From: JAHJDO01 sp030671985 [NCBI: bacterium]
Lineage (GTDB): Bacteria; JAHJDO01
Direction of reading: 5' to 3'
NCBI GenBank assembly: GCA_030671985.1
Contig: DAOVHI010000029.1
Location: forward strand, 1-12,746
DNA length: 12,746 nt
The notes beneath the pieces are model-generated. The model saw only the letters and a list, made by a program, of their open reading frames with translations, did not search any database and was not told the origin of the DNA. Of this stretch, positions 5,773 to 10,198 are shown one piece after another. Position numbers and translations under genes: made by a program. Position 1 is the first letter of the stretch; every line of letters starts with the position of its first letter.

Positions 5773-6527
5773 CAAAAAGAATAATTCCGTGTTTAGATGT
5801 AAAGGACGGAAGAGTTGTTAAGGGTATAAATTTTCTGAATCTCGTGGATGCCGGAGATCCTGTAGAAGTAGCATCAATTTATTCAAGAGAAAATGCCGAT
5901 GAATTGGTTTTTTTAGATATTACTGCAAGTGTAGAAAAACGCAGTACAATTCTTGATGTAGTAAAGAAAACCGCGGAACAGGTTTTTATTCCTCTCACGG
6001 TTGGAGGAGGTATCAGAAGCATAGAGGATATAAGGCTGCTGCTTAAGTCCGGAGCAGATAAAGTTTCATTGAATACGGCAGCCATAGAGAATAAAAACTT
6101 GATCAGGAAAGCATCCGAACAATTTGGCAGTCAGTGTATCGTCGTGGCGATAGATGCCAAGAGGAAAACTCAAAACTTAGAGTGGGAGGTCTATACTTAT
6201 GGCGGAAGAAAGTCCGTTGGACTGGATGTAATAGAATGGGCAGAAGAAGTTATGGAATTAGGCGCAGGGGAGATTCTGCTTACCAGTATGGATGCCGACG
6301 GTACAAAGGATGGGTATGATATAGCGCTGACCAGAGCGGTTTCAGAGACAGTGAATATTTCGGTAATCGCTTCAGGGGGAGCAGGTGCTCCCGAGCATCT
6401 TTGCCGGGTTTTAACGGATGGAAAAGCTGATGCTGTTCTTGCGGCATCTATTTTCCATTACGGTGAATACTCAATTAAAGAAACAAAAAAATATCTGAAG
6501 GAAAGAGGCATAGCGGTTAGAATATAA
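5766..6527 (+). CDS. hisF: Imidazole glycerol phosphate synthase, cyclase subunit HisF
   Basis: HisF is the (beta/alpha)8 barrel that condenses PRFAR with ammonia from HisH and cleaves it to imidazole glycerol phosphate plus AICAR. The 253 residues equal the usual family length. The two catalytic aspartates fall at the canonical positions: Asp11 ([14 protein letters not shown]) and Asp130 (VVAIDAKR). The phosphate-binding loops LTVGGGIRS and [11 protein letters not shown] are present, as is [18 protein letters not shown]. The ATG lies inside the hisH end (7-nt overlap), with GAGGAG at 5748-5753, 12 nt upstream, which is a little far. After KR at residue 133 the loop KTQNLEW is encoded by two heptamers like those in hisH. 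The gene ends 11 bp inside the oppositely oriented transporter gene. No terminator lies between them. Confidence 0.96.
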
Positions 6528-7470
6528 TAATTACCAAAAAAGCAGGGATTGTAATTATAGAAAGTAAGGTTGTTGAATAAATAGCGGATGCTGCAAACTT
6601 TTCGTCTCCTCCATATTGCTTTATAACAACAGAGGTTGCAATTGCAACCGGCATAATAGCTATTACGCTTGCGATTTTTTTACTTATAATCGGCATATTT
6701 AGAAAACTAATTAGTGCGAGAATGCATGCCGGTATCACCACTAATCTCAATACGTTAATTAATATTACATTTTTATCCTTAAATACGTTGAGGTAATGAA
6801 TATCCGCAAGCACAAAACCAGCTATAAGCATTGCAATTGGAATAGTTGTTTGCCCCAGAGCGCTTAATAATCGCATGAACACTAAACCTAAATCCGCAAC
6901 TGGTTTTGGGAACTGTGGGTGGAATCCGCTTAAGACCATTCCTAAAACGATTGCAATAAGCGGCATATTGACTATTTTTTTAAGAGAGGATATCTCAAGC
7001 TTGTGAGCAGTAACTATATAAATTCCTAGTGTCCACTGAACGAGAATCGTTCCAAGGTTACATAGTGCCAGCAGGACGACTCCCTTTTCTCCGAATAAAA
7101 CCAAAACAATCGGTAAAGGCAGAAAAGAGTAATTGTTTATCATGCAAGCGTATAAAAACGCGCTCTTCCTGGGTTTTGGTATTTTCCCGATTCTTGCTCC
7201 AATAATTCCAATAATATAGCCTACAACTACTATCAGAGCGCCGATAACTATAAGAACCAGATTTTCTCTTATCAGGCTCCAATTGCATTTTTTCAACATT
7301 GCAGAGAAGAGTAATGCCGGCCAAGCAATATTCATTAAGATACCTGAAAGAGACTTTGAGCCTTCGTTAGAAATTATATTAAGTCTCTTTGCAAATACAC
7401 CGATAAATATGAGGAGAAATACGTAGATTATCTCAATCCAAATCGACCAGAAAGTTTGTAAATATTGCAT
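6517..7470 (-). CDS. AEC-family (auxin efflux carrier / malate permease-like) membrane transporter
   Basis: This 317-residue, very hydrophobic inner-membrane protein has about ten predicted transmembrane segments in two halves, as in the AEC family (Pfam Mem_trans), whose bacterial members are annotated as malate or organic-anion permeases. Signatures are the N-terminal [20 protein letters not shown] and [17 protein letters not shown], the midpoint [21 protein letters not shown], and the second-half motif [17 protein letters not shown] charged cytoplasmic loop (residues about 92-103, [12 protein letters not shown]) follows the third segment. The substrate cannot be deduced. It is the last gene of a four-gene operon: its ATG lies 3 nt after the stop of the PII-like gene and has no strong Shine-Dalgarno of its own, suggesting coupling. 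Its 3' end overlaps hisF by 11 bp, tail to tail. Confidence 0.85.
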
Positions 7471-7473
7471 ATT

Positions 7474-7815
7474 TTATGTGAGATTCTCTTTGGATTTCAC
7501 AATTTCATTAACAGGCACGGTAAACATTATTCCTATGCTCGGTTCTGTAAAATCAATTCCTTCTTCTTTTAGAATCTTCTCTAGTTTGGAAAGAAATTTA
7601 TCTCCATCAATCAGGGCAAATATTGTTTTTGACGGCGTTTTTTCCTCTCCCATAAGCTGTCTCAATCCGGCGAATATCGGTACTTCATATGCCAAAAACT
7701 GACCTAAGCCCATACTGTCTATAATTGTCGCTCCACTAACTCCGAGTTCCACGAGAATGGACAGAACATCCTCTAAATGCTTTTCCTTATTTAAAACAAT
7801 AAATAAAAGTTTCAT
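7474..7815 (-). CDS. PII-like small signalling protein
   Basis: This 113-residue protein begins MKLLFIVLNKEKHLEDVLSI and is predicted to be beta-alpha-beta-beta-alpha-beta, the ferredoxin-like fold of PII and PII-like proteins. The C-terminal stretch IGIMFTVPVNEI resembles the strand and C-loop of PII (KIFVYPVEEV-type). The classical T-loop (with its YRG region) and the B-loop GDGKIF motif are absent, so it is PII-like rather than GlnB/GlnK. Such proteins usually sit beside a transporter and bind a nucleotide or other small ligand; the ligand here is unknown. Start: ATG 7815 has GGAGGG 8 nt upstream; TTG 7818 would add one Met and is less likely. It lies between an antiporter and an AEC carrier in one operon, consistent with gating one of them. 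Moderately sure of the fold, unsure of the ligand. Confidence 0.7.
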   Translation of the reverse strand: MKLLFIVLNKEKHLEDVLSILVELGVSGATIIDSMGLGQFLAYEVPIFAGLRQLMGEEKTPSKTIFALIDGDKFLSKLEKILKEEGIDFTEPSIGIMFTVPVNEIVKSKENLT

Positions 7816-7823
7816 CAATCATT

Positions 7824-7829
7824 CCCTCC
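7824..7829 (-). promoter_or_regulatory. Ribosome binding site of the PII-like gene
   Basis: GGAGGG on the minus strand, 8 nt before ATG 7815. It is much stronger than the Shine-Dalgarno sequences of the two membrane-protein genes of the operon, so the soluble signalling protein may be made in excess over the transporters. Confidence 0.7.
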
Positions 7830-7837
7830 ATAAAGTC

Positions 7838-9046
7838 TTAATAGCGACTTGTTTTTTTCTTACCTATTTCTCCTGCCTTTGAGATTGCGAATTTTGTTGT
7901 TATCGGACCTATTATTTCAAAGAAAATTGTAGTGGCGGCAATTGTATTTATAACGAGAATTGAAAGATGGGCGCCCGTTTCTCCCAAACCACCAAATTCT
8001 TTTGTAGCCAGAATAGCAAGTCCTATTGCAACGCCTGCCTGAGGAAGCAGCCCAAGTCCTAGATATCTTCTGATAACTGGTTTTGCCTTTGCCGTTACAG
8101 CTCCCAAATATGCTCCTCCCATTTTTCCGACGGATCTGGAAAGAATATAAATTAATCCTACCAGTCCCATAGCAGGAAGAAGCTTTATCTGAAGATGAGC
8201 GCCTGCTATGACAAAAAAGACTATAAATATAGAGGTGGTAATGAGATTAACTGATTCATAAGCTCTACGGTTCGCGAACAGAAAAATATTTGTAAACACT
8301 ACTGCTAAACTCATATTTGCTAAGATAAGAGAAAGATTGAAGTGATTTGATAAACCGGTACATATTAAAATCCCCCCCAGAGATACAGCTAATATCTCTG
8401 TCTTTCTATGTAGCTTTCTTAAAAAATATCCAAAAATAATTCCCATTAATCCGCCTAAAAGAATTGAGCCCAATATTTCAATTACAGGACCCTTTATAAT
8501 TCCGACAAATGATACGGAATTCCCTGTCAAAAACATCTTCGCAAAAGCGGCAGCAAACGCATAGATCACAACAGCTACACCATCGTCTAAACCAACAATT
8601 GCGTATATTGTATTCGTTAGGTTTCCTTTTGATTTATATTCTTGTAAGACTGCAACGGTTCCCGCCGGAGCTGTAGCCGCTGCCAGAGCTCCAAATATCA
8701 GTGCAATATGAAACTGACGAGTTAAAAGATAGGTGCCCAGCGTTACAAGCAAAACTGCGCCAAGTGATTCTCCTAAAAGAATTGTTAAAATCCCTTTGCC
8801 TAATTTGCGTAATATGCCAATACGCATCTCACTACCAATTATAAAAGCGACAATTCCCAGAGCAAAATCACTAAAAATACTTATTCGATCTAGGACATTT
8901 AAACTAAAGATATTAAAGACAGAATTCCCTAATAGAAGTCCTGCAAGAAGATATCCCACTACCGAAGGAAGCTTGATCAGCCTGGCAAGCTTTCCTCCAA
9001 TAAAACCACAAATCAGAGCCAATCCTATAAAAAACAATATGTCCAT
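7838..9046 (-). CDS. CPA2-type cation:proton antiporter (Na+/H+ exchanger family), membrane domain only
   Basis: This 402-residue polytopic protein has about 12 predicted membrane helices and belongs to the monovalent cation:proton antiporter-2 (Kef/NapA-like) superfamily. Typical landmarks are the N-terminal GGKLARLIKLPSVVGYLLAGLLLG, seen here in two parts at residues about 18-40, then FALGIVAFIIGSEM, then AAATAPAGTVAVLQEYKSKG. Next comes an LDD motif with Asp154-Asp155, at the place of the acidic pair that binds the ion in CPA2 exchangers. The C-terminal half has GLLPQAGVAIGLAIL. It stops after the membrane domain with a short Lys-rich tail and has no RCK/TrkA-N domain, so regulation may come from partner proteins. 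It is preceded by an EIIA gene (6-nt gap) and followed by the PII-like gene (22-nt gap). The ion specificity (Na+ or K+) cannot be read from the sequence. Confidence 0.9.
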   Translation of the reverse strand: MDILFFIGLALICGFIGGKLARLIKLPSVVGYLLAGLLLGNSVFNIFSLNVLDRISIFSDFALGIVAFIIGSEMRIGILRKLGKGILTILLGESLGAVLLVTLGTYLLTRQFHIALIFGALAAATAPAGTVAVLQEYKSKGNLTNTIYAIVGLDDGVAVVIYAFAAAFAKMFLTGNSVSFVGIIKGPVIEILGSILLGGLMGIIFGYFLRKLHRKTEILAVSLGGILICTGLSNHFNLSLILANMSLAVVFTNIFLFANRRAYESVNLITTSIFIVFFVIAGAHLQIKLLPAMGLVGLIYILSRSVGKMGGAYLGAVTAKAKPVIRRYLGLGLLPQAGVAIGLAILATKEFGGLGETGAHLSILVINTIAATTIFFEIIGPITTKFAISKAGEIGKKKTSRY

Positions 9047-9052
9047 ACTAAA

Positions 9053-9508
9053 TCAGTTCTCAATTTCTCTTATGACATTCATTATCTCGCCTGCATTCTG
9101 CGCTTCCAAAAGCTGATGTCTGAAGGATTCTTTTTTTAATAGTCTGGTGAGGTACGCTAAAACCTGAAGATATTTGTTGATGTCCTTTTTCGGAGTACCC
9201 ATTAAAAAAACCAGTTTTGCAGGTTTGTTATCCGGTGAATTAAAATCAATGCCTTGTGATGACCTTCCAAACGCAATAATAATATTATCGACAGCATTTG
9301 TTCTTGCATGCGGGATTGCTATCTCATTGCCTATTCCCGTAGCGCCTAATTTCTCCCGCTCAAAAACATCCTTTAAAAACATATCAAAATCCGTAACATC
9401 TTCAGATTCCTTTAATAACTCGGCCAGTTCTCTTATTACGTCATCCTTTGTTATGTTTTCTAAGGTTAAACAAATCATTTTTTCTGAGATATGGTCTGAT
9501 ATTCTCAT
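9053..9508 (-). CDS. Stand-alone PTS EIIA domain protein (Fru/Mtl/Ntr type)
   Basis: This 151-residue protein is a complete EIIA domain of the fructose/mannitol/nitrogen family. The phosphorylatable histidine is His67 in the hallmark stretch IGNEIAIPHART; preceding REKLGATGIG and following LVFLMGTPKKD also match. In sugar PTS this domain takes phosphate from HPr and passes it to EIIB, but no EIIB or EIIC gene is in the window. Single-domain relatives (EIIA-Ntr) act as regulators; E. coli PtsN controls K+ transport through TrkA and KdpD. Being first in an operon with a cation antiporter suggests a comparable regulatory job, which is an inference. The start ATG 9508 has GGGAG 9 nt upstream. EI and HPr must come from elsewhere in the genome. 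Confidence 0.9.
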   Translation of the reverse strand: MRISDHISEKMICLTLENITKDDVIRELAELLKESEDVTDFDMFLKDVFEREKLGATGIGNEIAIPHARTNAVDNIIIAFGRSSQGIDFNSPDNKPAKLVFLMGTPKKDINKYLQVLAYLTRLLKKESFRHQLLEAQNAGEIMNVIREIEN

Positions 9509-9709: not shown

Positions 9710-10183
9710 CTATTTCTTCTTTTTTCGTTTAATCTTTCCTGTCATCTTTCTAGTCTTAGATGTCATCTTATTCATGAATGTTTCAGGTCCTTCACTAGCA
9801 AGTTCCTTCAGCAGTTTTCCTCTTCTGCCTAAGGATCCAGAGGTAGTTTCAACCTTTTTACATCCCTTTATTGCGTTCTCGCATTTGATTATACAAGCTT
9901 CAGCATCTGCTATTACAGCCTTATCTTCATCAATTTTAGCGATAGCTATCTTTTTTTTGCATTCTTTAATACATGTCTTAGCTTCATCCATAATGAGCTG
10001 AATCTCTGCCTTCATGCTGCCGCTCAAATCTTCCATAGATGTACCACAAGATGTTAGGCTTTTACAACAGTCAGCCAATACCTTATCCCCTTTAGCTTCC
10101 ATTTCCCCGGCAAAAACCACTGATGTAGATGCCATAAGAACAACGGCTAATAAACTCGCAAAAACGATACTTGTCAATTTCAT
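9710..10183 (-). CDS. Exported Cys-rich helical protein with Lys-rich tail, unknown function
   Basis: I do not recognise this 157-residue protein. Residues 1-25 are a clear Sec signal peptide: MKLT, a hydrophobic core (SIVFASLLAVVLM), and a likely cleavage after VFA. The mature part is predicted to be helical and carries eight cysteines, at 39, 40, 46, 71, 75, 97, 101 and 108, including two CxxxC pairs (TCIKEC and ACIIKC) spaced as on one helix face. The last 20 or so residues are strongly basic, ending KIKRKKKK. CxxxC-bearing helical bundles occur in metal-storage proteins such as Csp, but no homology is claimed; disulfides are an alternative. Start: ATG 10183 has GAGGGGG 8 nt upstream; GTG 10192 directly abuts that purine run and is unlikely. 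The gene is single, with its own strong promoter, divergent from the LOG gene. Confidence 0.8.
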   Translation of the reverse strand: MKLTSIVFASLLAVVLMASTSVVFAGEMEAKGDKVLADCCKSLTSCGTSMEDLSGSMKAEIQLIMDEAKTCIKECKKKIAIAKIDEDKAVIADAEACIIKCENAIKGCKKVETTSGSLGRRGKLLKELASEGPETFMNKMTSKTRKMTGKIKRKKKK

Positions 10184-10191
10184 ACATTTCA

Positions 10192-10198
10192 CCCCCTC
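10192..10198 (-). promoter_or_regulatory. Ribosome binding site of the Cys-rich exported protein
   Basis: GAGGGGG on the minus strand lies 8 nt from ATG 10183 but directly against GTG 10192. It selects the ATG and hence a standard signal peptide beginning MKLTS. Confidence 0.7.

Follow-up and report, generated by a model that had tools for sequence, protein, structure and literature searches.

In the pair formed by GlnK and AmtB, a canonical PII protein controls an ammonium channel. This pair is named in work with the cyanobacterial PII-like protein SbtB, whose T-loop enters the cleft of the bicarbonate carrier SbtA (PMC8352866; this and the other papers cited here were available in part), a carrier sharing its crossover elevator topology with NapA and the PIN carriers (PMC9477730). 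Another kind of regulation comes from the phosphotransferase system (PTS): in Escherichia coli, the unphosphorylated form of the enzyme IIA (EIIA) PtsN, or EIIA-Ntr, binds and inhibits the K+/H+ antiporter YcgO, the case in which PTS control acting directly on an antiporter has been elucidated (PMC11808508). The means by which bacteria adjust sodium/proton exchange to their energy supply are poorly understood. The stretch of bacterial DNA analysed here (the window, 12,746 nucleotides; contig G000:C151 of a 152-contig assembly totalling 1,253,468 bases) encodes an EIIA, a cation/proton antiporter, a PII-like protein and an AEC-family carrier, and the first three belong to a module that spans dozens of bacterial families, not four genes of one genus. 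With a probability of about 0.6, we regard these three proteins as a single unit that controls Na+(K+)/H+ antiport post-translationally. The locus resembles PtsN-YcgO in joining an EIIA of the same family with a cation/proton antiporter (PMC11808508), and SbtB-SbtA in that a PII-like protein is encoded beside an elevator-type carrier (PMC8352866). Each half of the module has thus a precedent, and the combination itself is one for which we found no description. In this regard, a 2026 review of the nitrogen-related PTS names YcgO as a PtsN target, and PII never occurs in its available text (PMC13104625); a 2023 review of transporter regulation covers SbtB-SbtA and EIIA-Glc with no such module in the part available (PMC10710835). 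More generally, a module of EIIA, antiporter and PII-like protein did not appear in the literature on PII proteins, PtsN, the PTS and antiporters, which was covered mostly as titles and openings of abstracts and with subscription journals largely outside, and an earlier notice is possible.

The original prediction, made from the letters of the window, had placed here four closely spaced genes whose products would place ion and anion flux under the joint control of PTS phosphorylation and a small ligand. All four open reading frames (ORFs) are present on the minus strand, heading towards hisF in the order EIIA, antiporter, PII-like protein and AEC carrier, and the predicted spacing of 3-22 nt corresponds to measured gaps of 6, 22 and 3 nt. 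Further details of the prediction were borne out as well: the phosphorylatable His67 of the EIIA lies within the motif IPHAR, a GGAGGG ribosome binding site precedes by 8 nt the ATG of the PII-like gene (at position 7815; the program-made ORF begins at a TTG, 7818), and the antiporter lacks an RCK domain, its Na_H_Exchanger match spanning residues 9-387 of 402 with no other Pfam match at 0.001. The close spacing of the genes suggests that all four are carried on a single transcript. Scans of the window for promoters and terminators returned nothing usable, the promoter scan finding 11 candidates, no better than the mean of 11.4 in shuffled sequences.

The strongest evidence for a module comes from its recurrence. 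An initial search with the PII-like protein of the window alone matched 12 of 78 genomes (its own, four of the same genus and seven of distant lineages), and their neighbourhoods already contained EIIA and antiporter genes, as well as one fusion between EIIA and PII-like protein. A second search, with a 13-row profile, matched 71 of 385 genomes at 84 places, 10 of which, with E-values of 1.2e-7 or worse, were left out of the neighbourhood set; the other 74, together with L017 from a Candidatus Aerophobetes record, make up the 75 neighbourhoods described here. Genes were counted as linked when lying on the same strand within 1500 bp of the PII-like gene, using profiles built from the proteins of the window itself. 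Under this rule an antiporter is linked at 50 of the 75 places, an EIIA at 49 (11 of them as a fusion), and both at 38. By family, the tally covers 66 genomes of 46 families (five of the 71 genomes had only left-out places, and L017 carries no family label), with an antiporter linked in 31/46, an EIIA in 30/46 and both at one place in 23/46. Recurrence beyond near-identical strains, on which the original prediction had made its case depend, is thus found for EIIA, antiporter and PII-like protein. The 11 fusion proteins come from six families, and nine of them have an antiporter gene in range. Moreover, in genomes also holding a PII-like gene, 40 canonical PII genes served as controls, and none has an antiporter, EIIA or Mrp neighbour in the same range; these controls are 40 of the 51 places that scored at least 61 bits in a search of 50 of the 71 genomes, and the profiles applied to them derive from the linked genes, so that very distant antiporters could be missed in both sets.

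The order of the genes is far from constant. EIIA, antiporter and PII-like protein follow each other in this order at 12 places, antiporter and PII-like protein at 10, EIIA, PII-like protein and two antiporters at nine, antiporter and fusion at eight, and two antiporters, EIIA and PII-like protein at four, with other arrangements besides. Gaps within the module are mostly below 50 nt or overlaps, the largest being 224 nt, and without a shared function it would be difficult to account for a linkage that persists through rearrangement of this kind. A second type of antiporter points the same way: at four places (L023, L060, L061 and L067) the PII-like gene adjoins the Mrp antiporter genes MnhE, MnhF and MnhG, and at three of these an EIIA is also present. 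In L067 the ORF of the EIIA was called too long and overlaps the PII-like gene, and we read the order there as PII-like protein, EIIA and MnhE. Mrp and CPA2 antiporters are unrelated in sequence family and alike in their job. With both types counted, 54 of the 75 places have an antiporter in range, and 62 are linked to EIIA, antiporter or both.

The EIIA of the window scores above cut-off with Pfam PTS_EIIA_2 (126.5 bits) and with the NCBIfam fruA IIA model (121.2 bits), and its best match among PDB sequences is 2a0j, a nitrogen regulatory IIA. Of 48 aligned EIIAs, 47 carry the phosphorylatable His, among them the ten fusions whose sequence extends to that position; this count omits a 59-residue fragment in L017, and one gap row, L097, is cut by the end of its contig. 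The sole departure is an Asn in L095, whose genome (G222, 86% complete) matched neither enzyme I (EI) nor HPr. These two general PTS proteins follow the presence of a linked EIIA: EI was found in 57 of the 71 genomes, in 41/44 of those with a linked EIIA vs 13/22 of those without it (p = 0.0015 in a Fisher test, which ignores the kinship among these interrelated genomes), and HPr in 56/71 (55 over cut-off), in 40/44 vs 13/22. An EIIC of the PF02378 family, the one EIIC family sought, occurs in 3/71 genomes, so that the PTS in question looks regulatory.

In the antiporter of the window, the Na_H_Exchanger domain is recognised over cut-off with 111 bits, and the score with the NCBIfam CPA2 model TIGR00932 stays at 45.1 bits, under the cut-off of 238, which makes its CPA2 subfamily less sure than its superfamily. 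The domain is also matched in 52 of the 60 linked antiporters. The window protein keeps both the Asp pair and the Lys that are frequent at the ion site of the linked proteins (table), residues which we take to be those of the ion site in NapA and NhaA. None of the 60 has an RCK, TrkA, CBS or Usp domain (Pfam, 0.001), and any regulation would therefore have to come from separate proteins. In this the module differs from E. coli, where YcgO is a CPA1 antiporter whose RCK and CorC domains offer the docking site (PMC11808508): the window antiporter and its 60 linked relatives lack both domains at that same threshold, the genes in the window are linked, and in the available text of that paper a PII-like partner goes unmentioned, with 0 occurrences of PII. 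The paired antiporter-like genes that follow EIIA and PII-like protein at nine places (L077, L079, L088, L089, L092, L095, L098, L102 and L105) deserve a separate mention. One member of the pair has KD at the ion site in seven of the nine (GD and SD in the other two), the partner carries a motif other than DD in eight, and judging from these residues the pairs are possibly heterodimers with an inactive half.

For the PII-like protein of the window, P-II is the sole Pfam family at 0.1, with 24.2 bits just below the cut-off of 25, and 40 of the 75 relatives match P-II at 0.01. A profile of the 75 rows matches PII structures in the PDB sequences with a best E-value of 4.7e-5, which relates the family by sequence to the PII superfamily with canonical PIIs as its closest solved relatives. 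The genome of the window encodes a canonical P-II elsewhere (104.8 bits, contig G000:C137), so that this genome has two members of the superfamily, the one in the window being divergent. In a tree of 111 columns, the 75 PII-like proteins and 35 of the 40 canonical controls split on one branch (support 100/99; branches are long and the bootstrap incompletely settled). The clade of the window comprises 30 proteins (100/98), with an antiporter in range of all 30 and an EIIA in range of 25, vs 20/45 and 24/45 outside it, where all 13 PII-like proteins with neither partner are found. Ten of the 11 fusions form one group (99/96), the eleventh, L109, being a long branch elsewhere, and these ten make up with the four Mrp-linked proteins a set of 14 (93/97). 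At the position of the T-loop most members keep a Pro and a Phe (table). The window protein has Gln and Ile aligned to Tyr51 and Lys90 of canonical PIIs, which we take to be the residue names of nitrogen PII (GlnB/GlnK), the latter in the B-loop; there the Tyr is the residue that is uridylylated, and the Lys binds phosphate. Among the 75 proteins, the six most frequent residues at the first position do not include Tyr, and those at the second, where Arg occurs in five, do not include Lys.

Compared with known PII systems, the module resembles GlnK-AmtB in that a PII-type protein adjoins a membrane protein, here its likely target, and differs from it in belonging to that separate clade, without Tyr51 and mostly without Lys90, as well as from canonical PIIs in having neighbours that none of the 40 canonical genes has. 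SbtB-SbtA differs in its carrier, in its AMP/cAMP ligands and in the lack of an EIIA (PMC8352866), and neither the window protein nor the 75-row profile matched SbtB in the PDB sequences. PotN of Lentilactobacillus hilgardii (PDB 7o4x) was the second PDB match of the window sequence alone, at a non-significant E-value of 0.034. As regards the trimeric ferredoxin-like fold of the PII superfamily, a fold search with a poor model of the protein returned PII proteins as most of its top 50, none reaching E 0.001, with PotN in fourth place. PotN is reportedly encoded in the context of a polyamine ABC transporter operon, without EIIA. A receptor of c-di-AMP of the PstA/DarA type was considered and rejected, PstA chains being matched by the profile in the PDB only at E 0.36 and no such Pfam family appearing in the 75 members; the c-di-AMP synthase was not sought. 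Other genes were seen around some PII-like genes. A gene for a ClC chloride carrier that has CBS domains lies several genes away from paired EIIA and PII-like genes in L073 (297-2120), L075 (2716-4524) and L078 (2719-4575); genes for ATP synthase I and A chains lie near the PII-like gene, with no antiporter or EIIA in range, in L063 (67-2019) and L096 (269-2387); and an MlaE permease gene follows it immediately in L069 (4998-6172) and L072 (5006-6200). In Acetoanaerobium noterae (NZ_CP154629.1) the PII-like gene is unlinked, and in Subdoligranulum variabile (OY725837.1) it is found 35 bp upstream of an antiporter gene, with no EIIA within the stretch.

In the reading that we favour, the EIIA would carry phosphate from a regulatory PTS (EI-HPr), and its state would consequently report the supply of phosphoenolpyruvate (PEP) and energy, whilst the PII-like protein, which is related to nitrogen PII, would bind some other small ligand. 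Both regulators, fused into one protein in some lineages, would bind the cytoplasmic face of the antiporter and gate this carrier, which itself lacks a regulatory domain. By analogy with PtsN-YcgO, it would be the unphosphorylated EIIA that inhibits the antiporter, and the T-loop of the PII-like protein may insert into it as in SbtB-SbtA; direct contact and gating by the two proteins are presumed, as is Na+(K+) as the transported ion. Such a module would unite the two modes of regulation in the absence of the RCK and CorC domains found in YcgO. Its support computed here consists of linkage, fusion, the kept His, the match with EI and HPr, the antiporters without RCK and the use of a second antiporter type, Mrp. 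The odds are about even for the broader proposal that a widespread and undescribed PII subfamily forms with a regulatory PTS EIIA a two-input plug-in regulator, fused in some lineages and transferred among Na+/H+ antiporters of unrelated types (CPA2 and Mrp), which would tie the sodium/proton cycle to PEP supply and a second metabolite. The module suggests that PTS control of antiporters is common in bacteria mostly lacking a main-family PTS sugar permease, and provides a likely target for a PII-like family barely recognised by Pfam; moreover, thanks to the natural fusions, two genes suffice to test the hypothesis.

Several observations weigh against this reading, starting with the symmetry mismatch that a PII trimer and a CPA2 antiporter dimer would present for direct binding. 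The AlphaFold2 model of the PII-like protein, built from four alignment rows, is poor (mean pLDDT 53.9) and unfit for an interface, and the kinship among the sampled genomes has been noted. Neither EI nor HPr was found in the assembly of the window (G000) or in G001; both are adjacent in G002, G003 and G004 of the same genus, and we assume that the missing genes correspond to missing contigs. The ClC, ATP synthase or MlaE genes near some PII-like genes mean that the family may have other targets. In addition, 13 of the 75 PII-like proteins lack both partners within range, and a further 12 have the antiporter only; the EIIA is also missing beside the antiporter in L020 (G004), one of the five genomes of the window's genus. 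The EIIA is therefore a recurrent part of the module and not a strictly fixed one.

These same incomplete arrangements bear on other explanations. EIIA and PII-like protein might chiefly affect one another and some general target, be it an enzyme or transcription, with the antiporter as one effector from the same transcript. Six places having both genes with no antiporter in range would suit this idea, as would the unlinked PII-like genes, and we consider it unlikely in view of the antiporters of either type present at most places, including the 12 without EIIA and all those of the window's clade, and of two antiporter types having taken the same partners. More doubtful is that EIIA alone controls the antiporter, the PII-like protein serving elsewhere, for instance in sensing for the AEC carrier: there is a precedent in PtsN-YcgO (PMC11808508), and just 3 nt separate the PII-like and AEC genes, but antiporter and PII-like protein are paired at 12 places in the absence of EIIA, the AEC gene is rare, and the PII-like protein is joined to EIIA in 11 fusions. 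That the four genes represent a chance neighbourhood, or a genus-specific operon without joint function, we find very improbable. Such an origin would fit the limited recurrence of the AEC gene, and it is contradicted for EIIA, antiporter and PII-like protein by their recurrence across 46 families, by the frequency of both partners as compared with 0/40 in the canonical control, by the reshuffled gene orders and by the fusions.

The AEC carrier has a different standing. Its membership in the family is clear (Pfam Mem_trans, 101.8 bits, cut-off 25.7), and its gene is linked at 4/75 PII-like places, all in the window's genus, as judged with a profile from the window protein only, which could miss a distant AEC. 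In the fifth genome of the genus (L018), a gene for an Fe-alcohol dehydrogenase takes its place. Joint control by PTS and ligand, as advanced in the original prediction, thus finds support as a three-part module, through the 23 families with all three genes at one place and the 11 fusions, and is not supported as a four-part system, the AEC carrier being rejected as a core component on the count obtained with that profile. Within the genus this gene is probably co-transcribed with the module, and may share its regulators.

Features of the EIIA, antiporter, PII-like and AEC locus in the window
Feature	Position	Strand	Basis
EIIA, fructose/nitrogen type (151 residues)	9053..9508	-	Pfam PTS_EIIA_2, NCBIfam, PDB sequence match
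Codon of EIIA His67, phosphorylation site	9308..9310	-	Sequence; His in 47/48 aligned EIIAs
CPA2-type cation/proton antiporter (402 residues), without RCK domain	7838..9046	-	Pfam Na_H_Exchanger
Codons of antiporter Asp154-Asp155, ion-site DD motif	8582..8587	-	DD in 43/60 linked antiporters
Codon of antiporter Lys308	8123..8125	-	Lys in 47/60 linked antiporters
GGAGGG ribosome binding site of the PII-like gene	7824..7829	-	Sequence
PII-like signalling protein (113 residues from ATG)	7474..7815	-	Pfam P-II, 75-row profile, tree
Codons of PII-like Pro46-Ile47-Phe48, conserved motif at T-loop position	7672..7680	-	Pro 68/75, Phe 69/75
AEC-family carrier (317 residues), addition in the window's genus only	6517..7470	-	Pfam Mem_trans

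Some minor features of the window complete the picture of its surroundings. The AEC gene and hisF share 11 bp at their 3' ends (6517-6527). Positions 9710-10192 hold an ORF of 160 residues, signal-like at its start and rich in Lys at its end, for which Pfam and NCBIfam gave no match, and at 454-2001 a gene for a DUF1846 protein (Pfam, 565.5 bits) is found amid genes of purine and histidine synthesis.

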